Source: Kutzneria buriramensis (lineage in GTDB: Bacteria; Actinomycetota; Actinomycetes; Mycobacteriales; Pseudonocardiaceae). Taken from it: a stretch of DNA of 64,000 nucleotides. Every line of letters begins with the position of its first letter. Position 1 is the first letter of the stretch. The notes below the pieces were generated by a model that saw nothing but the letters and a program-made list of their open reading frames with translations, did no database searches and was not told the origin of the DNA. The translations under genes and the position numbers were made by a program. Of the stretch, positions 2,798 through 61,493 are shown piece after piece. Location of the stretch: contig NZ_QUNO01000013.1 of assembly GCF_003387475.1 (NCBI RefSeq), positions 248,001 to 312,000 of the forward strand, written 5' to 3'.

Positions 2798-2822
2798 GTT
2801 GCCCGCCCGGTCGGGCGGGCAC
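2798..2822 (+). promoter_or_regulatory. SigB/SigF-type promoter candidate for the 160-aa gene
   Basis: GTTG at 2798-2801, 15-base spacer, GGGCAC at 2817-2822, then 10 bases to the ATG at 2833 with no Shine-Dalgarno. The fourth base of the -10 (C for T) departs from GGGTAN. The spacer is itself an inverted repeat (see separate entry). Confidence 0.4.
2801..2820. repeat. Perfect 9-bp inverted repeat with 2-base spacer
   Basis: GCCCGCCCG at 2801-2809 pairs with CGGGCGGGC at 2812-2820. It lies about 65 bases after the VIT/vWA stop. It could act as a hairpin terminator for that gene (no T-tract follows) or as an operator, because it coincides with the spacer of the proposed promoter for the next gene. 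Confidence 0.4.
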
Positions 2823-2832
2823 TACTTGTCTC

Positions 2833-3315
2833 ATGGACACCTTCCGGCACGAGCTCGCGATCTACCTCAACGACCACCTGGCCGGCGCGACCGGCGGCGT
2901 CGAACTCGCGCACCGCCTTGCCCACGAGCACGACAGCGCCGAGCTCACCGGGCTCGCCCGCGACATCCAGGAGGACCGGGACAGCCTGCTGCGCATCATG
3001 ACAGCGCTGGGCGTGCAGCAGGACCACGTGAAGGTCGCCGCCGGCTGGCTCGGCGAGAAGCTGGGCCGGCTCAAGCTCAACGGCCACCTGTTCAGCCGCT
3101 CGCCGTTGAGCTACGTGATCGAGCTGGAGGCGATGCGGCTCGGGGTGGACGGCAAGGCCGCCGGCTGGCAGACCCTGCACTGCCTGTCCGAGCACGACAG
3201 TCGCCTGGACCGGGCCGACCTGGACGACCTGCTGGCCAGAGCCGAGGCCCAGAGGGAAACCCTGGAGCGGCTGCGGCGCCAGGCCGTGACGGCGGTCTTC
3301 GTGAAGTCCTCTTGA
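2833..3315 (+). CDS. Hypothetical all-helical protein, 160 aa
   Basis: I do not recognise a named family. The protein is predicted to be almost entirely alpha-helical, with heptad-like leucines and many charged residues. The repeated pattern of amphipathic helices (residues about 5-30, 35-60, 95-120, 130-155) is compatible with a ferritin-like four-helix bundle, but I do not see a clear ExxH metal-binding pair. The ATG at 2833 is chosen because a promoter-like element ends exactly 10 bases before it; the reading frame itself is open much further upstream as a shadow of the VIT/vWA gene. Standalone gene with probable stress-type control. Confidence 0.7.
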   Translation: MDTFRHELAIYLNDHLAGATGGVELAHRLAHEHDSAELTGLARDIQEDRDSLLRIMTALGVQQDHVKVAAGWLGEKLGRLKLNGHLFSRSPLSYVIELEAMRLGVDGKAAGWQTLHCLSEHDSRLDRADLDDLLARAEAQRETLERLRRQAVTAVFVKSS

Positions 3316-3335
3316 CCGGAACAGTTCCGGACGCC

Positions 3336-3360
3336 GATTGGCCGCCGCCGCACGGGGTAT
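3336..3360 (+). promoter_or_regulatory. SigB/SigF-type promoter candidate for the DUF6292 gene
   Basis: GATT at 3336-3339, 15-base spacer, GGGTAT at 3355-3360. The distance to the GTG at 3382 is 21 bases, leaving room for a short leader with a GAGG sequence at 3376-3379. Confidence 0.55.
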
Positions 3361-3381
3361 CTGCCTGGGGCAATCGAGGCG

Positions 3382-3750
3382 GTGACGAACGTGATGGAAC
3401 TGGACTTCGACGACTCCGGCTTACGAGATCTGCGCGCCTACGTGCGGCAGGTCGGCGCGGCGCTGGGTCTGCGCTGCGACTGCGCGTGCGTGCTGACGGA
3501 GCGGCCGGTCAGCGTCTACCTGGCCGTGGACGGACACCTGCCGCGCTACCCCGACCGCGACGTCGCCCTGCTGTGGGACGAGAACAGCGGCTGGTCGGCG
3601 GCGGTCGAGACGTACAGCGGCGAGGACCTGATCGTCGTCGCGGACATGGGGCCCGAGGTCTGGCCGGTGCCGGGACGGGTCGCGGCCTGGGCGACAAGGC
3701 TGCTGGAACCCGCTGATTCGACGCCCCCGCGCCGGGTACCCGTGCGGTGA
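3382..3750 (+). CDS. DUF6292 family protein
   Basis: 122 aa from GTG 3382; GTG 3391 or ATG 3394 are alternative starts, and the GAGG at 3376-3379 fits 3391/3394 better. The sequence pattern (an N-terminal helix RDLRAYVRQVGAALGL, then beta-rich segments around LALDGHLP-, ALLWDENSGW- and DLIVVADM-like blocks) matches the small actinobacterial DUF6292 domain, of unknown function. No signal or membrane segment. It lies between two stress-type promoters: its own, and one inside its 3' end that drives the next operon. Confidence 0.65.
   Translation: MTNVMELDFDDSGLRDLRAYVRQVGAALGLRCDCACVLTERPVSVYLAVDGHLPRYPDRDVALLWDENSGWSAAVETYSGEDLIVVADMGPEVWPVPGRVAAWATRLLEPADSTPPRRVPVR
3715..3739 (+). promoter_or_regulatory. 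SigB/SigF-type promoter for the TPP enzyme-ctaD-DUF6328 operon
   Basis: GATT at 3715-3718, 15-base spacer, GGGTAC at 3734-3739, inside the 3' end of the DUF6292 gene. It is followed 37 bases later by the ATG at 3777, which has a strong GAGGAGG ribosome binding site, so this transcript would be leadered. Confidence 0.6.
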
Positions 3751-3776: not shown

Positions 3777-5570
3777 ATGGCCGAGACCGTCGGCGACTAC
3801 CTGCTGGGCCGGCTGCGGGACTGGCAGGTGGACCAGGTCTTCGCCTACCCCGGTGACGGCATCAACGGCATCGTCGCGGCCTTCGGACGGGCCGACGACA
3901 CGCCTCGCTTCATCCAGGCCCGGCACGAGGAGATGGCCGCCTTCGAGGCGGTCGGCTACGCGAAGTTCAGCGGCAAGGTCGGCATCTGCATGGCGACGTC
4001 CGGCCCGGGCGCGATCCACCTGCTCAACGGGCTCTACGACGCCAAGCTGGACCACGTGCCGGTGGTGGCGATCGTCGGCCAGACCGCGCGCAGCGCGATG
4101 GGGGCCAGCTACCAGCAGGAGGTGGACCTCCAGAGCCTGTTCAAGGACGTCGCGAGCGCCTACCTGGTCGAGGTCAACGTCCCCGAGCAGCTGCCCAACG
4201 CGCTGGACCGCGCCATCCGGGTCGCCGAGGCCGAGCGCACGCCGACGGCCGTCATCATCCCCAGCGACCTCCAGGAACAGCCGTACTCGCCGCCGCAGCA
4301 CGTGTTCAAGCAGTCCCCGTCCAGCCCGCCGAGCCACCCGCACACGGTGACCGTGCCGGACCTGGCGGAGATCGAGCGCGCCGCCGACGTGATCAACGCG
4401 GGCAGCAAGGTCGCCATCCTGTGCGGCCAGGGCGCGCGGGCCGCCGCCGACGAGGTGCGCCAGCTGGCCGAGCTGACCGGCGCGGGCGTGGCCAAGGCGT
4501 TGCTGGGCAAGGACGTGCTACCCGACGATCTGTCCTATGTGACCGGTTCGATCGGACTGCTCGGCACCCGACCCAGCTACGAGCTGATGACCGGCTGCGA
4601 CACGCTGGTGATCATCGGCTCGAACTTCCCGTACTCGCAGTTCCTGCCGGAGTACGGCAAGGCCCGCGCCATCCAGATCGACATCGACGGCAAGTTCATC
4701 GGCATGCGCTACCCGACCGAGGTCAACCTGGTCGCCGACGCCAAGGCGACGCTGGCCGCGCTGCTGCCGAAGATCGAGCGCAAGGGCGACCGCTCGTGGC
4801 GGGAGACGATCGAGTCGAACGTCGCCAAGTGGTGGGAGACGATGGAGCGGGAGTCCATGGTGGACGCCGATCCGGTCAACCCGATGCGCATCACCTGGGA
4901 GCTGTCCGCCTGCATCCCGGACAACGCCATCGTCACCTCCGACTCCGGCTCCGCCGCGAACTGGTACGCCCGCACGCTGAAGATGCGCGCCGGCATGCGC
5001 GGCTCGCTGTCGGGCACGCTGGCCACCATGGGCCCGGGCGTGCCGTACGCGATCGGCGCGAAGTTCGCCCACCCCGACCGGCCGGCGATCGCGCTGGTCG
5101 GCGACGGGGCCATGCAGATGAACGGGCTGGCCGAGCTGATCACCATCAAGCGCTACTACGAGCGCTGGTCGGATCCCCGCTGCGTGATCTGCGTGCTGCA
5201 CAACAACGACCTGAACCAGGTGACGTGGGAGCTGCGGGCGATGGGCGGCGCGCCCAAGTTCGAGGAGTCCCAGGTGCTGCCGGACATCGACTACGCCGCC
5301 ATCGCGCGGTCCTTCGGCCTGGGCGGCATCGTCGTCACGGAGCCGGACCGACTGGGCGCGGCCTGGGAGGAGGCGTTCGCCGCCGACCGGCCGGTGGTGC
5401 TGGACGTGCACTGCGACCCGAACGTGCCGCCGATCCCGCCGCACGCGACGTTCGAGCAGGTCAAGGCGGCCGCGGAGTCGGTGCTCAAGGGCGACCCGGA
5501 CGCCTTCGGCCTGGTCACGCAGGGCATCAAGACGAAGCTCCAGGAATTCGTGCCCGGCAGCCGTAAGTGA
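3777..5570 (+). CDS. Thiamine pyrophosphate-dependent enzyme, pyruvate oxidase-like
   Basis: 597 aa. The three-domain architecture of the PoxB/acetolactate synthase superfamily is complete. The N-terminal Pyr domain begins around residue 3, with the catalytic glutamate in [16 protein letters not shown]. The central domain spans about 190-330. The C-terminal PP domain carries the thiamine motif GDGAMQMNG followed by [10 protein letters not shown]. The sequence fits the subgroup annotated as thiamine pyrophosphate-requiring proteins or pyruvate oxidase (pyruvate to acetate and CO2, feeding electrons to quinone). Acetolactate synthase is less likely because there is no small subunit nearby and the next gene is a terminal oxidase subunit. 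The ATG has GAGGAGG 5 bases upstream. It overlaps ctaD by 4 bp. Confidence 0.85.
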
Positions 5571-7243
5571 CTACCACAAGAAACCCGCCGCCCTTGACGC
5601 TGCCGCCGGTCCACGCCCGGCGGCGGCCCAAGGGCAGCGTGCTCGAGGAGACGCTGTTCACCACCGATCACAAGCGGATCGGTGAGATGTACCTGGTCAC
5701 CACGTTCGCGTTCTTCCTGCTCGGCGGCGTGCTGGCGCTGCTGATGCGGACGGAGCTGGCGCAGCCGGGACTCCAGTTCCTGTCCCAGGAGCAGTACAAC
5801 CAGCTGTTCACCATGCACGGCACCATCATGCTGCTGCTGTACGCGACGCCGAACGTCTTCGCCTTCGCCAACCTGGTGCTGCCGTTGCAGATCGGCGCGC
5901 CGGACGTGGCGTTCCCCCGTCTCAACGCGTTGTCGTACTGGCTGTACCTGTTCGGCGGCCTGATCGTCGTCTCCGGCTTCCTCACGCCCGGCGGCGCCGC
6001 CGACTTCGGCTGGTTCGCCTACGCCCCGCTCAACGAGCTCTCCCACTCCCCCGGCGTCGGCGCCAATCTCTGGGCCGTCGGCCTGATCCTGTCCGGCCTG
6101 AGCACGATTCTCGGCTCCGTCAACATGGTCACGACGGTGATCTGCCTGCGCGCGCCCGGCATGACCATGTTCCGGATGCCCATCTTCACCTGGAACATCC
6201 TGTTCACCTCGGTGCTGGCGCTGGCCGCGTTCCCGATCCTGACCTCCGCGCTGTTCGGACTGCTGGCCGACCGGACGCTGGGCGCACACGTGTTCGACCC
6301 CGCCAACGGCGGCGCGATCCTGTGGCAGCACCTGTTCTGGTTCTTCGGCCATCCCGAGGTGTACATCGTGGCCCTGCCCTACTTCGGCATCGTCACGGAG
6401 ATCTTCCCGGTGTTCAGCCGAAAACCGTGCTTCGGCTACAAGGGCCTGGTCTATGCCACCATCGCCATCTCCGGTCTGTCCATGACGGTGTGGGCGCACC
6501 ACATGTTCGCCACCGGCGCGGTGCTGCTGCCGTTCTTCTCGTTCACCAGCTTCCTGATCGCGGTGCCGACCGGCATCAAGTTCTTCAACTGGATCGGCAC
6601 CATGTGGCGCGGGCAGCTGACCTTCGAGACGCCGATGCTGTTCGCGATCGGGTTCCTGCTGACGTTCCTGTTCGGCGGCCTGTCCGGGGTCATCCTGGCC
6701 TCGCCGCCCCTGGACTTCCACGTCACCGACTCGTACTTCGTGATCGCGCACCTGCACTACGTGCTGTTCGGCACCATCGTGTTCTCCACCTTCGCCGGCG
6801 TCTACTTCTGGTTCCCGAAGATCACCGGGCGGATGATGGACGAGCGGCTGGGCAAGCTGCACTTCTGGCTGACGTTCATCGGCTTCCACACCACCTTCCT
6901 GGTGCAGCACTGGCTCGGCGCGGAGGGCATGCCCCGCCGCTACGCCGACTACCTGACCACCGACGGATTCACCACGCTGAACACCATCTCCACCGTCGGC
7001 TCGTACATCCTGGCCCTGTCCATGCTGCCGTTCCTGTGGAACGTGTTCCGCAGCCACCGGTACGGCGAGATCGTGCACGTGGACGACCCGTGGGGCTTCG
7101 GGAACTCGCTGGAGTGGGCCACGTCCTGCCCGCCGCCGCGGCACAACTTCCACTCGCTGCCCCGGATCCGCTCCGAACGGCCGGCCTTCGACCTGCACTA
7201 CCCGCACATCGATCCGGCGCCCGTCCACGAGAGATCCGGATGA
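5567..7243 (+). CDS. ctaD: Cytochrome c oxidase subunit I (heme-copper oxidase)
   Basis: 558 aa, twelve predicted membrane helices. Heme and copper ligands are visible: His in [11 protein letters not shown] (low-spin heme), the HPEVY motif of the Cu-B site with its cross-linked Tyr, the HH pair in WAHHMFATG, and the paired His in [10 protein letters not shown] for the two hemes. This is the catalytic subunit that reduces O2 and pumps protons. It starts at GTG 5567, overlapping the TPP-enzyme stop as GTGA. No subunit II, III or heme synthesis genes are in the window, so it probably is a second copy that borrows subunits or replaces the housekeeping CtaD under stress. Confidence 0.93.
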
Positions 7244-7713
7244 GCGGGCCGGAGCGGGACACCAACCAGCGGCTGGCCCGCAACGTCGGGGAGCTGTTAC
7301 AGGAGCTGCGCGTCGCCCAGAACGGCGTGCAGGTCCTGTTCGGCTTCCTGCTGTCGGTGGTGTTCACCGACAGCTACCGCAAGGCCGGCGACTTCGTGCA
7401 CGTCACGCACGTGGTCGTGGTGATCCTGACCGCGTCCTCGGCCGGTTTCCTGATCGCCCCGGCGGCCTGGCACCGCGTGCTGTTCCGCCGGGGCGCGCGC
7501 GAGGAGATCGTGGGCCGGGCCAGCAGGTTCGTCGTGATCGGACTGGTCCTGCTGGCCGCGGCGATGGCCGGCACCGTGCTGGTCATCGGTTACGTCGTGT
7601 TCGGCGGCATCGTCGGCGGCGTGCTCGGCGGCGGCATCGGACTGCTGTTCGTCTCGCTGTGGTTCGCGCTGCCGAAGGCGTTCGACGGAAGGGATCAGGA
7701 CTCGCCACGGTAG
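7240..7713 (+). CDS. DUF6328 family membrane protein
   Basis: 157 aa from ATG 7240, which overlaps the ctaD stop as ATGA. The N-terminal 35 residues are a soluble amphipathic helix ([20 protein letters not shown]), followed by four hydrophobic segments at about 30-50, 55-80, 95-120 and 125-145, the last two glycine-rich. The pattern matches DUF6328, a small four-TM family of unknown role. Its position as third gene of the operon suggests a link to the oxidase, but this is inference. Its last 19 bases overlap the end of the convergent SRPBCC gene. Confidence 0.75.
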
Positions 7714-8258
7714 TCCTCGGGCTTGACGCCCGGCATGTCCCCCAGCACCGGATCGGTCTCCGGCGGCTGGTTCGGCATCTGCTGCGGGATGGGGGTCGTG
7801 GGCGGCGCCATCGGCACCTCACCCCGCCAGGCCCCGGTCTCGTGGCCGCGCTTCTCGATGAACTCCTTGAACCGCTTCAGGTCGCCGCCGATCCGACTGT
7901 CCACGACGCCGAGCGCGGTGCCGGCCTTCTCCGTGAACGTGCCCGGCTCGTACTGCATGGCCAGCGACACCCGGGTGGTCGCCTGGTCGATCGGCTGGAA
8001 CGTCACCACGCCGCCGTGCGGCGGCCCGCCGACCGTGTTCCACGCGACCAGCTCGTCCGGATGCTGGGCGATGATCTGCGCGTCGAACTCGCGCGTGACG
8101 CCACCGATCTTCGTCAGCCAGTGCGTGTGGGTGTCGTCGACCTGGACGACCCGCTCCACCCCGTCCATGAACTCCGGGAAGGACTCGAACTGGGTCCACT
8201 GGTTGTAGGCGGTGCGCACCGGCACGTTGACGTCGATGGACTTCTCGATCGTGGTCAT
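7695..8258 (-). CDS. SRPBCC (polyketide cyclase/START-like) protein with proline-rich tail
   Basis: 187 aa. Residues 1-140 form an SRPBCC helix-grip fold: MTTIEKSIDVNVPVRTAYNQW, then FPEFMDGVERV and a long C-terminal helix containing DLKRFKEFIEKR. This group is common in actinobacteria and is often annotated as cyclase/dehydrase. From about residue 152 there is a proline-rich tail, PPTTPIP and later PPETDPVLGDMPG. The same tail occurs in the separate 58-aa protein at 57993-58169 (see findings). The start at 8258 is fixed by a GGGTAT element ending 9 bases upstream with no Shine-Dalgarno. The gene is convergent with DUF6328 and divergent from the antiporter operon. Confidence 0.82.
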   Translation of the reverse strand: MTTIEKSIDVNVPVRTAYNQWTQFESFPEFMDGVERVVQVDDTHTHWLTKIGGVTREFDAQIIAQHPDELVAWNTVGGPPHGGVVTFQPIDQATTRVSLAMQYEPGTFTEKAGTALGVVDSRIGGDLKRFKEFIEKRGHETGAWRGEVPMAPPTTPIPQQMPNQPPETDPVLGDMPGVKPEDYRGES

Positions 8259-8267
8259 GTGTCCCGA

Positions 8268-8291
8268 ATACCCGGGTGGCCGCAGCTCAAC
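8268..8291 (-). promoter_or_regulatory. SigB/SigF-type promoter of the SRPBCC gene
   Basis: On the minus strand: GTTG (8288-8291), 14-base spacer, GGGTAT (8268-8273), 9 bases to ATG 8258. No ribosome binding site lies in the 9-base interval, so a leaderless mRNA is expected. Confidence 0.65.
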
Positions 8292-8294
8292 CGG

Positions 8295-8320
8295 GTTTCG
8301 CGCGCCGGTCGGCCGGGCAC
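8295..8320 (+). promoter_or_regulatory. SigB/SigF-type promoter candidate of the antiporter operon
   Basis: GTTT at 8295-8298, 16-base spacer, GGGCAC at 8315-8320, 8 bases to ATG 8329. The -10 has C instead of T at position 4. It is back to back with the SRPBCC promoter. Confidence 0.4.
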
Positions 8321-8328
8321 CCGGCGGC

Positions 8329-8697
8329 ATGGCAGGAGCCGTGGAGACAGCCGTGTGGTGGGCGGTCCTGGTCGGCATCTGGCTGACCACGCTGAGTTCC
8401 GTCGACGCGCAGGACCTCGTCCTCGCGGCCGCGCTGGCGGTGCCGTGGGCCATCGCGGCGACGCTGGTGCGGCGCGCCTACGGCGGCCGGTGGCGGCCCG
8501 CTCAGGCCTGGACGTTGCCGTGGCAGGTGCTGCGCGGTTGTGCCGCGCTGTTCAGCCGGCACGCCGAGCTGCGGGAGATCCAGGTGCAGCCGATCCGGAA
8601 GGCGGTCAAGACGGTGGTCGTGTCCGCCTCGCCGAACACGGTCGTGTTGGACGACAAGGGATCCTCGTTGCGGGTGCACGCGTTGGGGCGCGAGTGA
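8329..8697 (+). CDS. mnhE: Na+/H+ antiporter subunit E (MnhE/MrpE family)
   Basis: 122 aa. Two N-terminal membrane helices, then a soluble C-terminal domain with the typical MnhE pattern IQVQPIRKAVKTVVVSASPNTVVLDDKG. It is the first gene of a seven-gene operon for a multisubunit cation/proton antiporter. The ATG at 8329 follows the promoter-like element by 8 bases; GTG 8341 is an alternative. The stop overlaps mnhF as GTGA. Confidence 0.85.
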   Translation: MAGAVETAVWWAVLVGIWLTTLSSVDAQDLVLAAALAVPWAIAATLVRRAYGGRWRPAQAWTLPWQVLRGCAALFSRHAELREIQVQPIRKAVKTVVVSASPNTVVLDDKGSSLRVHALGRE

Positions 8698-8948
8698 ACG
8701 GCTGGGAGATCGCGACGCTGGCCCTGATGGTCGGCGGCGTGGCGCCGGCGCTGGTGCTGGTCGCCCGCGGCGGTCCGGTGGACCGGCTCATCGGGCTGGA
8801 GCTGGGGGCGTCGGTGACGACGCTGACGCTGTTGGTGGCGATCCAGGGCGACGGGCAGTCCTCGTACCTGATCGTGCCGCTGGTGCTGGTGCTGCTGTCG
8901 TTCGCCGGCACGCTCGTGTACACCCGCCTGCTGGGGCCGAAGCCGTGA
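8694..8948 (+). CDS. mnhF: Antiporter subunit F (MnhF/MrpF)
   Basis: 84 aa, three predicted membrane helices, with the family signature GGPVDRLIGLELGASVTTL between helices one and two. It starts at GTG 8694 overlapping mnhE and ends overlapping mnhG. A small membrane subunit required for assembly of the Mrp complex. Confidence 0.85.
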   Translation: MNGWEIATLALMVGGVAPALVLVARGGPVDRLIGLELGASVTTLTLLVAIQGDGQSSYLIVPLVLVLLSFAGTLVYTRLLGPKP

Positions 8949-9226
8949 TCGCCTGGGTGTTGCTCGCGGCGGGCACCCTCGTGGTCGTCGCCTCATCGGT
9001 GGCCGCGGTGCTGGTCAGGGACTTCTACCGCCGGCTGCACTTCCTGACGCCGGTGACGTCGATCGGCGCGCCGCTGATCGGGCTGGCGCTGGCCGTCGAG
9101 AACGGGTGGGGCCTGACGACGGCGATCGTGCTGCTGACGGTGGCGCTGCTGGCCTTCACCGCGCCCGTCCTGACGGCGGCGGTCGGACGGGTCGGGGCGC
9201 AGCGCGACGGGATCGTGGACTCGTGA
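8945..9226 (+). CDS. mnhG: Antiporter subunit G (MnhG/MrpG)
   Basis: 93 aa, three hydrophobic segments. The segment VRDFYRRLHFLTPVTSIGAPLIGLAL corresponds to the MnhG/YufB signature (DxYxRLHxxT...G). GTG start at 8945 within a GTGA overlap; the stop overlaps the DUF4040 gene in the same way, indicating translational coupling. Confidence 0.85.
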   Translation: MIAWVLLAAGTLVVVASSVAAVLVRDFYRRLHFLTPVTSIGAPLIGLALAVENGWGLTTAIVLLTVALLAFTAPVLTAAVGRVGAQRDGIVDS

Positions 9227-9462
9227 ACCCGCTGCTCCTGGTGGCATTCGTGCTTGTCGCGGCCGGCGCGACGGTCGTGGTGTTCACGCGTGAGCCGTCC
9301 CGCCAGGCCGTGACGCTCGGCGTCTACGGAATCCTGCTGACGCTGCTGTTCGTGCTGCTCCAGGCCCCGGACGTCGCGTTGTCGCAGGTGGCGGTCGGGT
9401 CGGCGGTGGTGCCGCTGATGGTGCTGCTGGCCGTGCGGAAGGTACGGGGAGGCAAGCGGTGA
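9223..9462 (+). CDS. DUF4040 (MbhD-like) antiporter subunit
   Basis: 79 aa with three predicted membrane helices. The pattern REPSRQAVTLGVYGILLTLLFVLLQAPDVALSQVAVGSAV matches the DUF4040/MbhD domain (AxDVALxExxxG). In classical Mrp operons this segment is the C-terminal part of the large MrpA subunit; here it is a free-standing gene, as in archaeal membrane-bound hydrogenases. GTG start, 4-bp overlaps on both sides. Confidence 0.8.
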   Translation: MNPLLLVAFVLVAAGATVVVFTREPSRQAVTLGVYGILLTLLFVLLQAPDVALSQVAVGSAVVPLMVLLAVRKVRGGKR

Positions 9463-10193
9463 GCCGGCGTGCGCGCTGGGTCGTGTTCTGGCTCGGCGGT
9501 CTCGGCGTCGCGGTGCTGTTCGTGCTGGCGGTGCTGCGGCTGCCGGAGTTCGGCGGGCTCGTGCACCCGTATCGGGATCTCTCGGTGCCCGCGGCAATGG
9601 GGCGCTCGTCGCCGAACGTGGTGTCGTCCATCAACTTCGACCAGCGGGCGCTGGACACGTTGGGCGAGGAGACCATCCTGCTCGGGTCGGTCGTCGGCGC
9701 GGCGGCGCTGCTGCGGCCGTCCAAGGACGAGAAGGAGCAGTTGGCCAAGGAGGAAGGCCGGGTGCTGGAGGCGACCAAGCTGCTCGGTTACCTCCTGCTG
9801 CCGGTGACCTTGATCCTCGGCGCGGACGTGGTGACGCACGGGCATCTGACTCCCGGCGGCGGGTTCCAGGGCGGAGTCGTGCTCGCCACCGGCCTGCACC
9901 TGCTGTATGTCGCCGGCAGCTACCGGATGCTGCGCCGGCTGCGCCCCGTTTCCTGGTATGAGATGGCCGAGGCCGCCGGCGCGGGCGCGTTCGTCGTGCT
10001 GGGGTTTGTCGGCCTGTTCCTGGCCGGGTCCTTCCTCGCCAACGTGCTGCCGTGGGGGACGCTCGGCGACCTGTTCTCCAGCGGATCGGTTTTCGCGCTG
10101 AACGTCGCCGTCGGCGCGGAGGTCACCTCCGGTGTCGTGGTGCTGCTCGCGCGCTTCCTCGCGCAGGCCCTGTCCGTCCGGGAGGTCAAGTGA
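9459..10193 (+). CDS. mnhB: Antiporter subunit B with MbhE-like N-terminal region
   Basis: 244 aa. Residues 1-95 resemble MbhE (one helix, then DTLGEETILLGSVVGAAALLRP). Residues about 105-240 are a classical MnhB domain with TPGGGFQGGVVLATG and a final helix near EVTSGVVVLLARFL. So it looks like a fusion of the MbhE and MbhF equivalents. GTG start at 9459 overlaps the DUF4040 gene, and its TGA overlaps mnhC. An acidic/lysine-rich connector (about residues 86-106) separates the halves. Confidence 0.82.
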   Translation: MSRRARWVVFWLGGLGVAVLFVLAVLRLPEFGGLVHPYRDLSVPAAMGRSSPNVVSSINFDQRALDTLGEETILLGSVVGAAALLRPSKDEKEQLAKEEGRVLEATKLLGYLLLPVTLILGADVVTHGHLTPGGGFQGGVVLATGLHLLYVAGSYRMLRRLRPVSWYEMAEAAGAGAFVVLGFVGLFLAGSFLANVLPWGTLGDLFSSGSVFALNVAVGAEVTSGVVVLLARFLAQALSVREVK

Positions 10194-10525
10194 ATCTCCT
10201 GCCCTACCTGGTCGCCGGCTGGCTGCTGCTGATCGGCTGCTTCGGCGTCGTCCGCAGCCGGGACCTGATCCACACGGTGGTGTGCGTCGCCATCGCGCAG
10301 TCGGGGACGTACGTGCTGCTGCTCGGCATCGGCTTCCAGCGCGGGGCGTCGGCCCCGGTGCAGGGCGCGCCGGGCGCGGTGGTCGACCCCGTCGTGCAGG
10401 CGCTGACGCTGACCGACATCGTCGTCTCGGCCACCGTGACGGCGCTGCTGCTGGCGCTGGTCATCCAGATCTCGAAGCGCGCCGGCACCGTCGATCCCGA
10501 CGAGCTCGACGAGTTGCGGGGCTGA
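10190..10525 (+). CDS. mnhC: Antiporter subunit C (MnhC/MrpC, NuoK-like)
   Basis: 111 aa, three membrane helices. It has NuoK-family features: a short N-terminal helix, GxFGVVRSRDLIHTVVCVAIAQSGTYVLL, and DPVVQALTLTDIVVSATVTALLLAL in the third helix. GTG start at 10190 overlaps mnhB. It ends 3 bases before mnhD. NuoK homologues carry the membrane glutamate for proton transfer; here the corresponding region is less acidic than in NuoK itself. Confidence 0.85.
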   Translation: MNLLPYLVAGWLLLIGCFGVVRSRDLIHTVVCVAIAQSGTYVLLLGIGFQRGASAPVQGAPGAVVDPVVQALTLTDIVVSATVTALLLALVIQISKRAGTVDPDELDELRG

Positions 10526-10528
10526 GAC

Positions 10529-12313
10529 GTGGACCCGAGCTGGCTGCCACCGCTGGGCATTGCGATCCCGCTGGCCGGGGCGTGTGTGGTGCTCGCGCTG
10601 GCCAAGTTCGTGCCGCGGCTGGTCGTGGACATCGTGGCCATGGTGACGGCCGTGGTGGCCGTCGGCGCCATGTCGATGCTGCTGGCCTTCACGGCGGCGG
10701 GCCGGGTGGTGACCTGGGTCGGCGGGTGGACGCCCGACCACGGCGTGGGCATCGTGCTGGCGGCCGACCCGATCGGGGCCGGTTTCGCGCTGCTGGCCTG
10801 CGTGTTGACGGCGTGCGCGCTCATCTACACCTGGCGGTACTTCGACGACGCCGAGGCGCACGTGCACGTGCTGATCCTGCTGTTCATGGCGGGCATGGTC
10901 GGCTTCTCACTCACCGCCGACCTGTTCGACCTGTTCGTGTTCCTGGAGCTGATGAGCGCCACCGCGTACGCGCTGACCGGGCACAAGATCGAGGAGCCGC
11001 GGTCGGTGCAGGGCGGCTTCACCTTCGGCGTGGTGACGTCGCTGGGGGCGTACTTCTCGCTGGCCGGCATCGGGATCCTGTACGCGCGCACCGGCCAGCT
11101 CGGCATGCCGCAGATCGGCACCGCGCTGGCCGGGCACGGCATGGACGCCCTGGTGCTGGCCGCGTTGGTGCTGGTGCTGACCGGGTTGCTGGTGAAGGCG
11201 GCGGTCGTGCCGTTCCACTTCTGGCTGGCCGACGCCCACGCCGTCGCGCCGACGCCGGTGTGCGTGCTGTTCTCCGGCGTGATGGCCCCGCTCGGCCTGT
11301 ACGGTGTGCTGCGGGTGACGACGACCGTCTTCGGCGGCGTGCTGCCGGCGGCATCGGCGCACGGCACGTTTGTGGTGCTGGGCATCGCAACGGCTGTGGT
11401 GGGAGCGGTGTTGTGCCTGATGCAGCGGCACCTCAAGCGGATGCTCGCGTACTCAACCATCGCCCACTTGGGCCTGTTCCTCATCGCCATGGCCACGCTG
11501 ACCGCTTCCGGCGTCGCCGGGGCGGTGGTGTACGTGTTCGGACACGCCGGCGTGAAGGGCGCTTTGTTCCTGATGGTGGGCGTGTTGTTGGCTCGCAAGG
11601 GAAACGTCGATGAGTTCGCGCTGTTCTGCGAGGGCCGCGACGAACGGCTGACGAAGTGGTTGCTGCCGCTGGGGGCGCTGGCGCTGGCCGGGCTGCCACC
11701 GTTCGGCACCGGGCTGGGCAAGGCGATCAGTGAGGAGTCGACGGAAAGCGTCGCGCTGACGGCGCTGTTCGTGCTGGTCTCGGCGGCGACGGGCGGCGCC
11801 GTGCTGCGGGCGTCGCTGCGAATCCACTTCGGACTGGGACCGCCGCCCGACGACACCGATCGTGACACCACCAAGGGCGAGGGCGAGGAGCAGGAGGGCC
11901 GCTTCCCCAACCGCGTGCCGGCAACCATGGTGGCGGCGATCGCCGTGCTGCTGACCGGCGGGCTGCTGGTCGGTGTGGTGCCGCAGGTGGCTGAGGCGAT
12001 GGGCGTCGGGGCGCAGCGGTTCCTCGACCGGAACGGGTTCATCGCACAGGCCATGCACGGGGTCGCGGCGGCTCCGGTCGGCGGCATCGAGACGGCGTGG
12101 ACCTGGTCGGGGGTGGCGTTGGGGCTGCTCAGCGCGGTGCTGGCGGTGGCGATCGGCTTCGTCGGGGTGCACTTCGGCCTCGGCCGGCTGCGCGGGGCGC
12201 TGAAGGCGCCGTTGCACGTGGTGCACCGCCTGCACTCCGGTCACGTCGGCGACTACGCGGCGTGGCTGGTGCTGGGCATGACGGCCGTCGGCGCGCTGTT
12301 CGTGATCACCTGA
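10529..12313 (+). CDS. mnhD: Antiporter subunit D (MnhD/MrpD, NuoN/NuoM-like)
   Basis: 594 aa with about 14 membrane helices. The proton-conducting core shows the antiporter motif LMSATAYALTG (glutamate in the preceding LELM), a conserved lysine in VLTGLLVKAAVVPFHFWLADAHAVAPTP, and KRMLAYSTIAHLG. It is the only large antiporter-type subunit in the operon: no MnhA/NuoL-type subunit is present. The C-terminal 90 residues add two helices and a soluble tail. Starts at GTG 10529. Confidence 0.88.
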   Translation: MDPSWLPPLGIAIPLAGACVVLALAKFVPRLVVDIVAMVTAVVAVGAMSMLLAFTAAGRVVTWVGGWTPDHGVGIVLAADPIGAGFALLACVLTACALIYTWRYFDDAEAHVHVLILLFMAGMVGFSLTADLFDLFVFLELMSATAYALTGHKIEEPRSVQGGFTFGVVTSLGAYFSLAGIGILYARTGQLGMPQIGTALAGHGMDALVLAALVLVLTGLLVKAAVVPFHFWLADAHAVAPTPVCVLFSGVMAPLGLYGVLRVTTTVFGGVLPAASAHGTFVVLGIATAVVGAVLCLMQRHLKRMLAYSTIAHLGLFLIAMATLTASGVAGAVVYVFGHAGVKGALFLMVGVLLARKGNVDEFALFCEGRDERLTKWLLPLGALALAGLPPFGTGLGKAISEESTESVALTALFVLVSAATGGAVLRASLRIHFGLGPPPDDTDRDTTKGEGEEQEGRFPNRVPATMVAAIAVLLTGGLLVGVVPQVAEAMGVGAQRFLDRNGFIAQAMHGVAAAPVGGIETAWTWSGVALGLLSAVLAVAIGFVGVHFGLGRLRGALKAPLHVVHRLHSGHVGDYAAWLVLGMTAVGALFVIT

Positions 12314-12316
12314 CGC

Positions 12317-12341
12317 GGATACTCTCGCGGCTGCTGGGTAA
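12317..12341 (+). promoter_or_regulatory. SigB/SigF-type promoter of the SDR gene
   Basis: GGAT at 12317-12320, 15-base spacer, GGGTAA at 12336-12341, 9 bases to ATG 12351. No Shine-Dalgarno in the interval. Confidence 0.55.
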
Positions 12342-12350
12342 CCCTTGGTC

Positions 12351-13373
12351 ATGGACCGAGTCGTGGTGATCACCGGCGCAACGGGAGGGGTCGGGCGGGC
12401 GACCGCGCGCAGGTTCGCCGAGAAGGGCGACCGCGTGGCGCTGCTGGCCCGGGGCGAGGCGGGCCTGGCCGCCGCCGCGGAGGACGTGCGGGAGGCCGGC
12501 GGCACGCCGCTGCCCATCCCGGTCGACGTGGCCGACGCCGAGGCGGTGGACAAGGCCGCCACGGCCGTCGAGACGGCGTTCGGGCCGATCGACGTGTGGG
12601 TGAACGACGCGTTCAGCTCCGTGTTCGCGCCGGTCGACGAGATCAGCGCCGAGGAGTACCGGCGCGTCACCGAGGTCACCTACCTGGGTTACGTGCACGG
12701 CACACTGGCGGCCCTGAAGCGGATGAAGCCGCGCGACCGGGGCACCATCGTGCAGGTCGGCTCCGCGCTGGCGCACCGGGGAATCCCGCTGCAATCCGCG
12801 TACTGCGCGGCCAAGCACGCGATCAAGGGGTTCACCGAGTCGCTGCGCTGCGAGCTCATGCACGACCACAGCAACGTGCACGTGACGCTCGTGCACCTGC
12901 CGGCCGTCAACACGCCCCAGTTCGACTGGCTGCTGTCGCGGCTGCCGCTGCCGGCGCAGCCGGTGCCGCCCATCTACCAGCCCGAGGTCGCGGCCGAGGC
13001 CATCGTGCACGCCGCGGCCCACCCGCGGCGGCGCGAGTACTGGGTCGGCGGCTCGACCGTCGGCACCATCATCGGCGAGAAGCTGGCCGGCGGGCTGCTG
13101 GACCGCTACCTGGCCCGCACGGGCTACAACGCGCAGCAGGTGGATCGGACGCCGCCGCGGGACCGGCCGAACCTCTGGGAGCCCGCCGACCGGCAGGCCG
13201 ACCACGGCGCACACGGGGCGTTCGACTCGGAGGCCAAGCCGCGAAGCAGGCAGTGGTGGCTGAACTCGCGCCGCAACGCGCTGCTCGCCGGCGCGGCGGC
13301 CACGACGACCGCCCTGCTGCTGCGCTCGCATCGGAAAGGCAAGGGAGATCATGGAGACGACCGAGCTACGTGA
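12351..13373 (+). CDS. SDR family oxidoreductase
   Basis: 340 aa. The classical short-chain dehydrogenase core covers residues 1-250: TGATGGVG near the N terminus binds NAD(P), and the catalytic Ser and YxxxK are visible in VGSALAHRG and AYCAAKHAIKG. The C-terminal 90 residues extend beyond the core and end in a hydrophobic helix (LLAGAAATTTALLLRS) that may anchor it to the membrane. The substrate is not deducible. ATG 12351 is preferred over TTG 12345 because of the promoter spacing. The 3' end overlaps the baeRF gene by 23 bases. Confidence 0.88.
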   Translation: MDRVVVITGATGGVGRATARRFAEKGDRVALLARGEAGLAAAAEDVREAGGTPLPIPVDVADAEAVDKAATAVETAFGPIDVWVNDAFSSVFAPVDEISAEEYRRVTEVTYLGYVHGTLAALKRMKPRDRGTIVQVGSALAHRGIPLQSAYCAAKHAIKGFTESLRCELMHDHSNVHVTLVHLPAVNTPQFDWLLSRLPLPAQPVPPIYQPEVAAEAIVHAAAHPRRREYWVGGSTVGTIIGEKLAGGLLDRYLARTGYNAQQVDRTPPRDRPNLWEPADRQADHGAHGAFDSEAKPRSRQWWLNSRRNALLAGAAATTTALLLRSHRKGKGDHGDDRAT

Positions 13374-15503: not shown

Positions 15504-15512
15504 CCGAAACCC

Positions 15513-51794: not shown

Positions 51795-52139
51795 TCAGTC
51801 TGCCCCATGGGCCTGTCCGGCCCGTACCGGCCGTGCGCTGCTGGCGGTGGTCAACATGACGGCGAGACCTCCGGTGACGGCCGTGCCGCCGATGACCACC
51901 GCGACGGCGGCGGCGACCCCCAGGGCGGACGCGAAGGCGGCGCCGACGACGATCGCGGCGATGCCGGCCAGTGCGACGAGGCCCGACCAGAGGAAAGGCC
52001 GCGGCGGACGCTGCGGCCGGTGGTCGCCGGTCGGCACGGCGAACAGGCGGACGAGTTGGGTCAGCGCGACATCGCCGGCCAGTGAGTGGTCCAGCCGGGC
52101 CAGGCGCCGTCGCTGCCGGATGGACAGGCCTTTGCTCAT
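51795..52139 (-). CDS. DUF3040-like membrane protein
   Basis: 114 aa. N-terminal positively charged amphipathic helix with LSIRQRRRLARLDHSLAGD, the DUF3040 lead-in pattern, then two hydrophobic helices (about 50-75, 80-100). The C-terminal residues are short and polar. ATG 52139 has AAGGAG at a distance of 11 bases. It lies downstream of, and on the same strand as, the mechanosensitive channel gene, 59 bases away. Identity as DUF3040 is probable, not certain. Confidence 0.6.
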   Translation of the reverse strand: MSKGLSIRQRRRLARLDHSLAGDVALTQLVRLFAVPTGDHRPQRPPRPFLWSGLVALAGIAAIVVGAAFASALGVAAAVAVVIGGTAVTGGLAVMLTTASSARPVRAGQAHGAD

Positions 52140-52198
52140 GACTACCAGTGCTCCTTTCCCGCCACTACGGCTGCCCGGCCAGCGACCCGCGAAACGCG

Positions 52199-52816
52199 TC
52201 ACTCCGGCTGGTGCAGGCCCACGGTGACGCCGGCGGCCAGCACGCCGGCGTTGGGCAGCAGCAGCGTGCCGTTGTCGGCGGCGAGCGTCACGTAGGTCAG
52301 GCCCAGCGCCCGCACCCGGCCGGTGAACGGCCCGTTCAGCGCGCCGGACCGCACCTCGATGGTGTCGCCGACGCGAAACGGCCGCACCAGCAGGATCATC
52401 AGGCCGGCGAACACGTTGCCCAGGGTCTGCTGGGCGGCGATGCCGACCACGACGCCGGTCAGCGCCCCGCCGACGATCAGCTGCTGCAAGGGGATCGCCA
52501 GCAGGCTCAAGGCGCTCAGCACGACCACGCAGTAGCCGGCGGCCGAGATGACCACGGCCAGCACCGAGCCGGCCGAACCGAGGCCGCGGCGGCGAAACCG
52601 GGCGTCGACGTAGCCGGCGATGCGGCGCACCGAGAGCACGCCGCCGATCAGGAACAACAGGGTGCCGGCCAGCGAGACGGCCTTCAGCAGCACCTTGTCC
52701 TGGGTCGGGACGAGCCCGGAGTCCTGGGCGTTCACCACGATCAACCCCGCGATCGCGACCACCACCCACAGCAGCGGCCGGCGCAGGCGGACAGCTTTCT
52801 CCACCGTTGCGGTCAT
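52199..52816 (-). CDS. Small mechanosensitive ion channel (MscS family)
   Basis: 205 aa, shorter than E. coli MscS (286 aa). Four hydrophobic segments at about 15-35, 45-65, 85-105 and 105-130. The pore helix and beta domain are recognisable: GGALTGVVVGIAAQQTLGN, then ILLVRPFRVGDTIEV. The C-terminal cytoplasmic alpha/beta cage is missing; the protein ends a few residues after the beta domain. It should open on membrane tension and release osmolytes. ATG 52816 is 9 bases from a GGGTAG element with no Shine-Dalgarno. Confidence 0.83.
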   Translation of the reverse strand: MTATVEKAVRLRRPLLWVVVAIAGLIVVNAQDSGLVPTQDKVLLKAVSLAGTLLFLIGGVLSVRRIAGYVDARFRRRGLGSAGSVLAVVISAAGYCVVVLSALSLLAIPLQQLIVGGALTGVVVGIAAQQTLGNVFAGLMILLVRPFRVGDTIEVRSGALNGPFTGRVRALGLTYVTLAADNGTLLLPNAGVLAAGVTVGLHQPE

Positions 52817-52825
52817 GAAGATCGC

Positions 52826-52852
52826 CTACCCGGGTGACCCCCGGGCACAAAC
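52826..52852 (-). promoter_or_regulatory. SigB/SigF-type promoter of the mechanosensitive channel gene
   Basis: Minus strand: GTTT (52849-52852), 17-base spacer (one longer than usual), GGGTAG (52826-52831), 9 bases to ATG 52816. No Shine-Dalgarno. Confidence 0.5.
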
Positions 52853-52859
52853 ACCGGTC

Positions 52860-54903: not shown

Positions 54904-54941
54904 CACTGCCTCTCTCGGGTCGGGTTCGTCACACCAGTCGG

Positions 54942-54965
54942 GTACCCGGTGGAAGCAGCTCAAAC
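54942..54965 (-). promoter_or_regulatory. SigB/SigF-type promoter of the DJ-1-hydrolase-Ku operon
   Basis: Minus strand: GTTT (54962-54965), 14-base spacer, GGGTAC (54942-54947), 38 bases to ATG 54903, with a Shine-Dalgarno in the leader. Confidence 0.65.
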
Positions 54966-54971
54966 TCGGAC

Positions 54972-54996
54972 GTTGAGCGCGGCCGTGAGCGGGTAG
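54972..54996 (+). promoter_or_regulatory. SigB/SigF-type promoter of the DUF4383-like/transketolase operon
   Basis: GTTG at 54972-54975, 15-base spacer, GGGTAG at 54991-54996, 9 bases to ATG 55006. No Shine-Dalgarno. It is back to back with the DJ-1 promoter, the -35 elements 6 bases apart. Confidence 0.65.
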
Positions 54997-55005
54997 CCCA
55001 ACAGT

Positions 55006-58169: not shown

Positions 58170-58179
58170 GCGAACCCGG

Positions 58180-58204
58180 TTACCCCGCACGGCGGAAGAT
58201 CAAC
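58180..58204 (-). promoter_or_regulatory. SigB/SigF-type promoter of the 58-aa gene
   Basis: Minus strand: GTTG (58201-58204), 15-base spacer, GGGTAA (58180-58185), 10 bases to ATG 58169. It lies in the 40-base gap after the transaldolase gene. Confidence 0.6.
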
Positions 58205-58209
58205 CAGGC

Positions 58210-59307: not shown

Positions 59308-59324
59308 CTCACCACTCCCTTCGC

Positions 59325-59513
59325 TCAGCGGCGGTCCGGACCCGGCTCGGAATCGGGCTCCGGACTGGGCATCGGCGGCACCACGGGCCGCGGCTCGATC
59401 GGCCCCGGCACGTGCGGGTCGGGCATGTTCGGATCGGGCACGCTCGGGTCGGGCACGCCGGGGCTCTCCGGATCGGCCGGGATCGGCCTCTCGGGCACGG
59501 TTGGCACACTCAT
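59325..59513 (-). CDS. 62-aa proline-rich protein with PDP repeats
   Basis: ATG 59513 overlaps the aconitase stop by 4 bp. The product is about 35 percent proline with repeats of the form VPDPS, VPDPN, MPDPH, VPGPI, and has no cysteine or hydrophobic segment. It is translationally coupled between aconitase and transaldolase. It shares the proline-rich style of the 58-aa protein but not its PTTPIP/VLGDMP motifs. Function unknown. It could also be a non-functional ORF, but its start and stop fit the operon precisely. Confidence 0.55.
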   Translation of the reverse strand: MSVPTVPERPIPADPESPGVPDPSVPDPNMPDPHVPGPIEPRPVVPPMPSPEPDSEPGPDRR

Positions 59514-61444
59514 GATCCGTCTCCTGTCCTGTTCGCGAGCTGGGGAATCACGCCGCCGGCCAGCACGGCCTCGACCTGACGCTCGGAAAGCCGGTGCGTG
59601 CAGCGGTAGTCCTGGTCCCGCGTGACGTTGCGCACGATGATCTCGGCGCCACCGGCAAGCTGGCCGCGGAAGTCGGTCACGGCGAGCTCGTCGCCCTGTT
59701 CGATACGGTCGTGGTCGCCCTCGTCGGCGAATTCCAGTGCGACGATGCCGAAGTTGGCCAGGTTCTGCCAATGGATCCGGGCGAACGACTTGGCCAGCAC
59801 CGCTCGCAGGCCGAGGAAGCGGGGCGTGATGGCGGCGTGTTCACGCGACGAGCCCTGCCCGTAGTTCCCGCCGGCGACAACGAAGTGCGACTTGTCCGCA
59901 CGCTCCGGATACTGCGGATCCACCTGGGTGAAGGTGAATTCGGCCAGCTTGGGGATGTTCGACCGGTACGGCAGCGCCCGCGCCCCGGCCGGCGAGATCT
60001 CGTCGGTGGAGATGTCGTCGCCGACCTTGAGCAGCACCGGCCCGGACACTTTGTCCGGCAACGGATCGAAGTCGGGCAGCGAGGCGATGTTGCCGCCCTT
60101 GACGAGTTTCTCCTGACGGGCCAGCTCTTCCGGCAGCGGCGGGACGAGCATGTCGGTGTTGACCGACGACGTCGCCGGCGCGGCAACGACGTCCAGCCCG
60201 TCAGCAACCGACATGGGATCGGTGATCTTGCCGGTCAGCGCCGAGGCGGCGGCGGTCTCGGGCGAGCACAGCCAGACGGAGTCCTCCCGGGTCCCCGACC
60301 GGCCGGGGAAGTTCCGCGGCATGGTGCGCAACGAGTTCCGGCCGGTCGCGGGCGCCTGCCCCATGCCGATGCACCCCAGGCATCCCGCCTGGTGCACGCG
60401 CGCGCCCGCGGCGATCAGGTCGAACGTGACGCCGGCCCTGGTCAGGTCGGCGAAGATCTGGCGGGAGCTCGGATTGACGTCGAAGCTCACGGCGTCGCTG
60501 GTCTGACGGCCCCGAACGATCGCGGCGGCCACGGCGTAGTCGCGAAAGCCGGGGTTGGCCGAGGATCCGATGACCACCTGGCTCACCGGCTCGCCGGCAA
60601 CCTCCCGCACCGGCACCACATTGCCCGGCGAGGACGGCTTCGCGATCAACGGCTCGACGGCGTCCAGGTCGATCTCGTCGGTCACGTCATACGGGCCGTC
60701 GGCGGTCAGCTCGTGGAAGTCCGCCGAGCGGTCCTCGGCCGCGAGGAACTCGCGCACGGCATCGTCGGCGGGAAACACGGTCGTCGTGGCCCCGAGTTCG
60801 GCCCCCATGTTCGCGATCACGTGCCGGTCCATCGCCGTCAGCGAGGCCAGCCCGGGCCCGTGGTACTCGATGATCCGGTGCAGACCGCCCTTCACGCCGT
60901 GGCGGCGCAGCATCTCCAGGATCACGTCCTTGGCCGACACTCCCGGCCGCGGTGAACCGGTCAGGCGCACGCCCCAGATCTCCGGCATGCGCAGCCGCAG
61001 CGGCTCCCCCGCGATCGCCAGCGCGACCTCGAGCCCGCCGACGCCGATCGCGAGCATCCCCAACGAACCCGCCGCGCACGTATGTGAATCGGAGCCGACG
61101 AGCGTCTGGCCGGGCACGCCGAACCGCTGCATGTGCGTCGGGTGCGACACACCGTTGCCGGGCTTGGAGAACCAGATCCCGTAACGCCGGCAGGCGCTGC
61201 GCAGGAACTCGTGGTCCTCGGCGTTGCGCTCGTCGGCCTGCAACAGGTTGTGGTCGACGTACTGGACGCTCACCTCTGCCTGCGTCCGGCGTACGCCCAG
61301 GGCCTCCAACTCCTGCATCACCAGCGTGCCCGTCGCGTCCTGGGTGAGGGTCTGATCGATCCTCAGCGCGATCTCCGCGCCAGGCCTCATCTCGCCCTCG
61401 ACCAGGTGCGCGGCGACGAGTTGCCGCGCGACGTTGAGTCCCAC
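59510..61444 (-). CDS. acn: Aconitate hydratase, single chain
   Basis: 644 aa, shorter than AcnA/AcnB (about 890). The [4Fe-4S] ligands are visible in GSDSHTCAAG (first Cys) and GCLGCIGMGQAP (last two Cys). The catalytic domain shows RNFPGRSGTREDSVWLCSPE. The swivel domain follows: DDISTDEISPAGARALPY and NYGQGSSREHAAI. The size and sequence match the aconitase type of mitochondrial/short class. It interconverts citrate and isocitrate. GTG 61444 is preferred, as GGAGG lies 7 bases upstream; GTG 61453 would overlap that site. Confidence 0.9.
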   Translation of the reverse strand: MGLNVARQLVAAHLVEGEMRPGAEIALRIDQTLTQDATGTLVMQELEALGVRRTQAEVSVQYVDHNLLQADERNAEDHEFLRSACRRYGIWFSKPGNGVSHPTHMQRFGVPGQTLVGSDSHTCAAGSLGMLAIGVGGLEVALAIAGEPLRLRMPEIWGVRLTGSPRPGVSAKDVILEMLRRHGVKGGLHRIIEYHGPGLASLTAMDRHVIANMGAELGATTTVFPADDAVREFLAAEDRSADFHELTADGPYDVTDEIDLDAVEPLIAKPSSPGNVVPVREVAGEPVSQVVIGSSANPGFRDYAVAAAIVRGRQTSDAVSFDVNPSSRQIFADLTRAGVTFDLIAAGARVHQAGCLGCIGMGQAPATGRNSLRTMPRNFPGRSGTREDSVWLCSPETAAASALTGKITDPMSVADGLDVVAAPATSSVNTDMLVPPLPEELARQEKLVKGGNIASLPDFDPLPDKVSGPVLLKVGDDISTDEISPAGARALPYRSNIPKLAEFTFTQVDPQYPERADKSHFVVAGGNYGQGSSREHAAITPRFLGLRAVLAKSFARIHWQNLANFGIVALEFADEGDHDRIEQGDELAVTDFRGQLAGGAEIIVRNVTRDQDYRCTHRLSERQVEAVLAGGVIPQLANRTGDGS

Positions 61445-61467
61445 CGGAGCCACCTCCAGTCCTGGGG

Positions 61468-61493
61468 CTACCCCGTGCGGACCGGTGTGACTC
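61468..61493 (-). promoter_or_regulatory. SigB/SigF-type promoter of the aconitase operon
   Basis: Minus strand: GAGT (61490-61493), 16-base spacer, GGGTAG (61468-61473), 23 bases to GTG 61444. The -35 is a weak match. Confidence 0.45.

Follow-up and report, generated by a model that had tools for sequence, protein, structure and literature searches.

Predicted SigF-type promoters are gathered in a ~154-kb island of the Kutzneria buriramensis genome

A 64,000-nucleotide (nt) stretch of Kutzneria buriramensis DNA (the window; bases 248001-312000 of contig C13 in genome G000, an assembly of 12.0 Mb in 65 contigs) was analyzed for promoters of the SigB/SigF type, which an earlier reading of the sequence alone (the sequence-only reading) had placed before about 19 of its gene starts. 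The window is the last part of an island of ~154 kb (C13 156-310 kb) that is dense in SigF-type promoters. These sites very probably serve as promoters for the one SigB/SigF-family sigma factor of the genome and are gathered in an island whose general-stress identity is suggested by the motif and the gene content. What the analysis shows is the motif itself, its enrichment and conservation, the gene content, the sigF operon and two distinct classes of distance between motif and start codon.

The sequence sampled from G000 comprised C13 1-400000 and 1.2 Mb from other contigs. Genes were predicted with our own coding model, using a caller that ignores the motif and favors Shine-Dalgarno starts; calls differed slightly between the run on C13 alone and the run on all stretches. 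The control set consisted of 843 upstream gaps of G000. Parts of contigs C2, C3 and C5 were taken in the knowledge that they contain GTTT..GGGTA matches, which inflates the control count, so that this bias acts against a claim of enrichment in the island. The island was delimited as 140-320 kb for the contig profile, the 5-mer and dyad comparison and the held-out matrix, and as 150-312 kb for the shuffles and coding counts, the distances in G000, the exact-gap counts and the shared-gene test. On the contig profile, a match was considered upstream when it was intergenic and no more than 150 nt from a gene start. Sites were scored with a two-block matrix, the held-out version of which was trained on the island outside the window only.

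The seven clearest sites of the sequence-only reading were all present, on the plus strand at 3715, 12317 and 54972 (matrix scores of 16.5, 9.8 and 12.5) and on the minus strand at 8268, 22146, 54942 and 58180 (19.0, 10.5, 16.1 and 14.1), with 12317 and 22146 the weakest. The exact pattern GNNT-N14-17-GGGTA occurred 22 times in the window (10 plus, 12 minus), some matches having a common -10. The 30 gaps upstream of window genes (3.1 kb in all) held 12 exact -10s, whereas 100 dinucleotide shuffles averaged 0.43 and never exceeded 3; the island gaps held 28 vs. a shuffle mean of 1.22, and the control gaps were nearer chance, with 18 vs. 10.8. At least one exact site was found in 12/30 window gaps, 28/105 island gaps and 17/843 control gaps (island vs. 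controls, p = 1e-17). Since the island figure includes the window, 16 of the 75 gaps outside the window have an exact site. In sense coding sequence, the exact pattern matched once over the window's 61 kb and four times over the island's 147 kb; on the antisense strand, the window genes (61 kb) gave 2 matches. The sole sense-coding match in the window must be the 3715 site, which falls within the 3'-terminal part of the open reading frame (ORF) 3394-3750. Thus, when the motif density was compared as the sequence-only reading had proposed, genes and random sequence did not equal the upstream gaps but fell far below them.

An unbiased 5-mer comparison of island and control gaps ranked GGGTA first of 831 (38/120 vs. 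54/843), and the top 6-mer was GGGTAT. Of 20,938 dyads tested, those ranking highest among long-gap forms were TTT-N15-GGG and TTG-N16-GTA (unadjusted p = 2e-7 and 1e-6, respectively). With the held-out matrix, a score of at least 10 was reached in 10/30 window gaps vs. 11/843 controls (p = 1e-10), and a reciprocal, window-trained matrix gave 14/90 outside gaps vs. 10/843 controls. At a score of 6, the held-out matrix found sites in 20/30 window gaps and also in 103/843 controls, so part of the loose GGGCAC and GGTAC variants that had been counted as promoters will be noise. The total of about 19 gene starts is nonetheless reasonable, in that the all-island matrix, although partly trained on the window, placed sites of at least 8 before 21 window starts. 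Genome-wide, GTTT-N14-17-GGGTA gave 50 exact matches vs. 19 for the reversed pattern, with 9 of the 50 in the island (~1.3% of the genome). The learned consensus, GTTTG-N15-GGGTATC, has a GTTT-like -35, a GGGTA -10 and a spacer within N14-17. It agrees with the mycobacterial SigF consensus GGWWT-N16-17-GGGTAY (PMC7693655) and with the SigB-family promoters of Streptomyces coelicolor, which have GTTT or GNNT and a nearly invariant GGG and A (PMC8346170), in accord with the SigB/SigF assignment originally made.

A single G000 gene, at ~C2 431.0-431.8 kb, exceeded the cut-off of the SigB/F/G family (TIGR02980), with 305 bits. Thirteen weaker sigma-like matches fell below the cut-off, and none of all 14 was on C13; the absence of a sigma factor gene from the window, as originally noted, therefore extends for SigB/F/G to the rest of C13. 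The best-matching solved chains for the sigma factor were 8x6g_H ("RNA polymerase sigma factor") and 1l0o_C ("sigma factor"). The sigF operon encodes, in order, an ANTAR protein, a STAS protein, a HATPase_c_2 protein and the sigma factor, with a WhiB gene divergent from it, and the motif occurs on both sides of the gap between the operon and whiB (16.8 and 17.4). Each of seven Kutzneria genomes, G000 included, has one gene above the cut-off. The gene set for partner switching is present, with HATPase_c_2 and STAS genes beside sigF, and SpoIIE, two STAS genes and a HATPase+STAS protein in the island.

Upstream sites of the island extended from near C13 156.2 kb to near 309.5 kb. All 33 exact matches upstream of C13 genes lay within 140-320 kb, and no upstream match (within 150 nt) was found in C13 0-140 or 320-400 kb; the lone matrix site outside the island on C13, at 74.0 kb, stood 169 nt away from a gene start. 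The sequence-only reading had described most of the window as a coordinated stress region. The sites are indeed co-located, yet the unit is the ~154-kb island, and within the window they fall into two separate blocks, one at 2.8-28.7 kb and the other at 52.2-61.5 kb, with a nearly empty middle. Between the blocks were one marginal matrix site (8.1, ~38.5 kb) and exact-pattern matches at 38466, 42067 and 47680. Genes common to the islands of relatives (described below) made up 4/10 at contig 280-300 kb vs. 30/32 at 250-280 kb. Long proteins (1101, 1288 and 1065 amino acids [aa]) are encoded in the motif-poor middle, at window 28644-43552; a Pfam scan of the 1101-aa protein and of a 396-aa protein from the same part gave no match.

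Pfam and domain scans covered 44 of the ~55 window genes and 30 further island genes. Products encoded in the window included a pyruvate-oxidase-like enzyme, COX1, an Mrp antiporter, baeRF, a weakly matched universal stress protein (USP), QcrA/QcrB, MscS, Ku, PfpI, transketolase, transaldolase and aconitase. Elsewhere in the island were genes for SpoIIE, the two STAS proteins, the HATPase+STAS protein, WhiB, CheB, CheR-PAS, Ppx/GppA, transaldolase, topoisomerase IB, Orn/Lys/Arg decarboxylase, FMN reductase, YaaH, hemerythrin, BrkB, ChaB and a Na/H exchanger. The site upstream of SpoIIE scored 14.8 and those of the two STAS genes scored 16.5 and 13.6. The presence of COX1 (window 5639-7243) together with the QcrA/QcrB pair (25942-28619) in the island suggests a second, stress-specific respiratory set. 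The baeRF gene (13351-14442) encodes a family 2 protein that is archaeo-eukaryotic release factor-like. The broad baeRF-like kind includes ribosome hibernation factors, and this gene may be what the sequence-only reading meant by ribosome hibernation.

The island recurs in three more Kutzneria genomes, G005, G006 and G009, the latter two having many island genes in similar order. Upstream sites scoring at least 10 numbered 46 in 348 kb of G006 (43 of them at 460-640 kb), 23 in 400 kb of G009 (all at 1.32-1.44 Mb) and 27 in 240 kb of G005 (26 at 1.16-1.30 Mb). A Labedaea cluster, located via the motif pattern in four named relatives among the matches listed, had 14 such sites in 160 kb. Across 27 site-orthologue pairs, for which the site was chosen in G000 only, identity was 81/108 (75%) in the -35 and 108/135 (80%) in the -10, and it was lower in the spacer (173/303, 57%) and flanks (1165/2174, 54%). 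Sites were associated with genes common to the relatives' islands (22/49 vs. 9/54, p = 0.002), and G006 had a counterpart for 14/17 sites, with 5/23 site-less genes also having one. In the flanks of named relatives, 25 of the 28 scanned loci (of 80) had at least one upstream site scoring 9 or more, a count with no control from those genomes; the scan found no such site in Microlunatus, Halosaccharopolyspora or locus L132. Phytohabitans, which belongs to another family, has a SigF-type site (L175, 9917-9944; 15.5) 50 nt before a transketolase relative.

Genome G010 (one contig, completeness 100, contamination 6) keeps sigF with a divergent GTTT..GGGTA pair nearby. Its transketolase matches, among those listed, were only partial (34-35%), the pyruvate-oxidase-like enzyme and a 452-aa island marker were unmatched at the chosen cut-offs, and the FAD/4Fe-4S protein had a best match of 54%, like the second copies in other genomes. 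The presence of sigF without close matches to these island markers fits a block that was lost or never gained, as judged from just four markers. In G005 a close transketolase is lacking, yet the island is kept; G008 lacks the 452-aa marker, but close transketolase and oxidase genes are present. In G007, a 4.7-Mb genome of the same genus, the pyruvate-oxidase orthologue is ~20 kb from sigF (C191 52.4-75.3 kb); in G005, G006, G008 and G009 the two genes are far apart or on different contigs.

The distance from motif to gene start was bimodal. For 139 starts with a site of at least 10 in the island stretches of five genomes, the motif ended <7 nt from the start in 2 cases, 7-9 nt in 52, 10-18 nt in 1, 19-60 nt in 66 and >60 nt in 18. 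The 7-9 nt class contained 11/35 starts in G000, 20/43 in G006, 10/22 in G009, 9/25 in G005 and 2/14 in Labedaea. Shine-Dalgarno-like tetramers preceded 3/52 starts in this class vs. 57/66 in the 19-60 nt class (at a score of 12, 0/38 vs. 42/48). Given this spacing and the lack of a Shine-Dalgarno sequence, about a third of the promoters (52/139) probably make leaderless mRNAs. As an internal control, TANNNT ended 6-8 nt before the start in 101 matches among the 843 control gaps, a sharp spike, and ordinary leaderless promoters seem common in G000. GGGTAN ended 8-10 nt before the start in 9 matches (105 island gaps). In the excerpted Table 2 for S. coelicolor, 8-10 bases follow the -10 hexamer in 19/24 rows by hand count (PMC8346170); if the last printed base is the transcription start site, starts here would lie within ~1 base of the start codon, the S. 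coelicolor spacing being ~1 base shorter than that of Kutzneria before start codons. In Mycobacterium smegmatis, leaderless transcripts make up 24% of the total (PMC6448022), and 14 of 88 printed distances for SigF targets are 8-11 nt (hand count, PMC4694148). The short-distance share thus looks higher in Kutzneria, though distance conventions may differ.

The sites in the window, with matrix scores in parentheses, were as follows.

2795-2823, plus strand: weak SigF-type site GGTTG..GGGCAC (9.8), 9 nt before a 160-aa gene (2833-3315) that was matched in the G005 and G006 stretches.
3334-3361, plus strand: SigF-type promoter GATTGG..GGGGTATC (18.9), 32 nt before 3394-3750; G006 orthologue 17.8.
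3713-3740, plus strand: SigF-type promoter in the 3' end of the preceding ORF, 3394-3750 (16.5), 36 nt before 3777-5570.
8267-8294, minus strand: SigF-type promoter, predicted leaderless (19.0), 8 nt before the ATG of a polyketide-cyclase-like gene (7695-8258).
8293-8321, plus strand: SigF-type site, GGGCAC variant (13.1), 31 nt before Mrp-type antiporter genes (8353-12313; MnhB, MrpF, Proton_antipo_M).
12315-12342, plus strand: weak SigF-type site (9.8), before an SDR gene (12363-13373) that is followed by the baeRF gene (13351-14442).
15477-15504, plus strand: SigF-type site, GCGGTACC variant (13.4), 8 nt before a luciferase-like monooxygenase gene (15513-16481).
17226-17253, minus strand: SigF-type site GGGCATC (13.0), 124 nt before 16490-17101 (second gene call), which has a weak Usp match (27.5 bits); G006 orthologue 9.3.
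17431-17458, minus strand: SigF-type site (11.8), 37 nt before a small ORF (17259-17393); G006 orthologue 12.6.
22145-22173, minus strand: SigF-type site (10.5), 26 nt before a GH15/trehalase-like gene (20466-22118; Pfam).
24177-24204, minus strand: SigF-type promoter (13.5), 19 nt before DUF1360-SnoaL-enolase-like genes (24157 to 22156); G009 14.5.
28628-28655, minus strand: SigF-type promoter, predicted leaderless (15.5), 8 nt before QcrA (27534-28619) and QcrB (25942-27543); G006 15.4 at the same distance, G009 just 3.5.
28750-52100, no strand: stretch nearly devoid of SigF-type sites (1 matrix site of at least 8, 3 exact matches), with few genes of the relatives' islands.
52170-52197, minus strand: SigF-type promoter GGGCAGC (16.2), 30 nt before a DUF3040 gene (51795-52139; Pfam).
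52825-52854, minus strand: SigF-type promoter (12.2), before an MscS-domain gene (52199-52804); G006 11.6, G009 8.0.
54941-54967, minus strand: SigF-type promoter, half of a divergent pair (16.1), 37 nt before a PfpI-unknown-Ku row (54903 to 52860); 15.2 in both G006 and G009.
54970-54997, plus strand: SigF-type promoter, other half of the pair, predicted leaderless (12.5), 8 nt before DUF4383 (55006), followed by transketolase (55427); G006 orthologue 12.5.
58179-58207, minus strand: SigF-type site (14.1), 9 nt before a 58-codon ORF (~58169 to 57993).
61467-61495, minus strand: SigF-type site (11.0), 22 nt before an aconitase gene (59510-61444; Pfam Aconitase).

Two of the seven sites singled out originally are present with a qualification. 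The 3715 site sits inside the end of the preceding ORF; the gene behind it (3777-5570) encodes the pyruvate-oxidase-like enzyme, which is thiamine pyrophosphate-dependent (Pfam TPP_enzyme N/M/C), and GATT and GGGTA are present upstream of this gene in G006 and G009. The 58180 site has no called gene behind it, just the weakly supported 58-codon ORF, which had one weak match among relatives (E = 0.006). A 183-codon minus-strand ORF at 57.4-58.0 kb matched the window's own locus only, and the opposite plus-strand ORF had one weak partial match elsewhere; as these opposite ORFs were poorly matched, the site was assigned to the 58-codon ORF. At 8267-8294, GGTTG and GGGTATTC are kept in G006 and G009 and the spacer differs; the automatic orthologue test missed this site in G006 owing to a longer ORF prediction. 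No site was found upstream of the G006 orthologue of the Mrp-type antiporter genes.

Several observations weigh against a SigF-controlled island. The later matrix was trained on the whole island, making its island scores optimistic, and it gives 8 sites of at least 10 per 147 kb of island sense coding sequence. All gene starts are the output of our own gene caller, and each tested Kutzneria sigma gene was identified by homology alone. Gene-by-gene conservation is mixed: in contrast to G006, G009 had a counterpart for 6/10 sites vs. 10/16 site-less genes, i.e., no association. The association of sites with shared genes was non-significant when only the window was considered (11/22 vs. 1/8, p = 0.10). 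Of the 103 island genes with a usable gap, 72 scored <10, and this figure, together with the nearly empty middle of the window, is what favors a mixed region in which SigF promoters lie close by happenstance and form no functional unit. We consider this unlikely, as like clusters with shared genes recur in G006 (43/46 sites), G009 (23/23) and G005 (26/27). That the motif reflects random occurrence or the GC-rich composition of the genome can hardly be credited. GNNT is loose, and its GTTG form has no clear genome-wide excess (124 vs. 113 reversed, among the matches listed), but chance was rejected by the held-out matrix, the shuffle and coding counts and the control gaps, and the hexamers are conserved better than the spacer.

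The thirteen sigma-like matches below the family cut-off leave room for a different sigma factor as the reader of these sites. This is very unlikely given that just one gene lies above the cut-off, that the motif precedes the sigF operon itself and that it equals the published SigF/SigB consensuses (PMC7693655, PMC8346170). A dormancy cluster of the DevR/OsdR type, with the SigF sites secondary, is similarly improbable. USP and respiration genes are found in clusters of that type too, but SigF elements rank first in the unbiased comparison; one of the 30 printed dyads looks palindromic (GTC-N3-GAC, 20/120 vs. 52/843), and the OsdR/DevR box itself was not searched for in Kutzneria. OsdR of S. 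coelicolor and mycobacterial DevR resemble the present case in placing stress and dormancy genes under one actinobacterial regulator (PMC5069765), and differ in being response regulators rather than sigma factors.

From established SigF/SigB biology and the gene content, we infer the following for control by SigF. In unstressed cells, the RsbW-like HATPase encoded beside sigF would hold the sigma factor, and stress signals acting via SpoIIE-type phosphatase, STAS and ANTAR proteins would free it. The SigF holoenzyme would then bind GTTTG-N15-GGGTAT promoters, among them the ones preceding its own operon, whiB and the island's SpoIIE and STAS genes, in a positive loop, and would turn on genes for respiration, cation export, redox, DNA breaks and sugar phosphates under stress. 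About a third of the promoters would put the transcription start at or beside the start codon, yielding mRNAs translated without a leader.

SigF regulons are known and are partly clustered beside sigF in M. smegmatis, and the present island, unlinked to sigF, is a variant of that arrangement. The M. smegmatis regulon has the same promoter consensus and many neighboring targets, sigF among them, in the target-dense cluster MSMEG_1758-1804; targets of like kind are RsbW, type I topoisomerase, ChaB, hemerythrin, aconitate hydratase, MscS and arginine decarboxylase (PMC4694148). In G000, by contrast, sigF is on another contig, and in G005 and G009 some 0.9 Mb separates it from the island. The SigB family of S. 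coelicolor uses the same GTTT/GNNT and GGGTA elements; it has nine homologues, compared to one above the cut-off in each of the seven Kutzneria genomes, and a clustered regulon is not mentioned in the excerpted text and table (PMC8346170). Among the top-ranked literature matches no title dealt with a SigF promoter island, which is no proof of absence, and among the matches listed for Kutzneria with sigma factor and stress, none dealt with this by its title.

Taken as a whole, the analysis provides a map, drawn from sequence only, of a predicted general-stress regulon that lies largely within a single block of the chromosome, separate from its sigma gene. It raises two testable questions, namely why a stress regulon clusters physically and whether SigF promoters often yield leaderless mRNAs. 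Tentatively, and as a possibility that we regard as doubtful, the island may be an accessory module for general stress that is complete in itself and has come or gone as a unit between Kutzneria species; it would bring its own partner-switching regulators under SigF promoters, connect to a resident sigF located elsewhere on the chromosome and benefit from leaderless mRNAs. If so, synthesis of island proteins would continue under stress that impairs initiation via Shine-Dalgarno sequences. Leaderless translation is reported to be less affected by stress in M. tuberculosis reporters (PMC8485053), and SigF-driven leaderless mRNAs, if confirmed, would tie SigF control to this stress-robust mode of translation.

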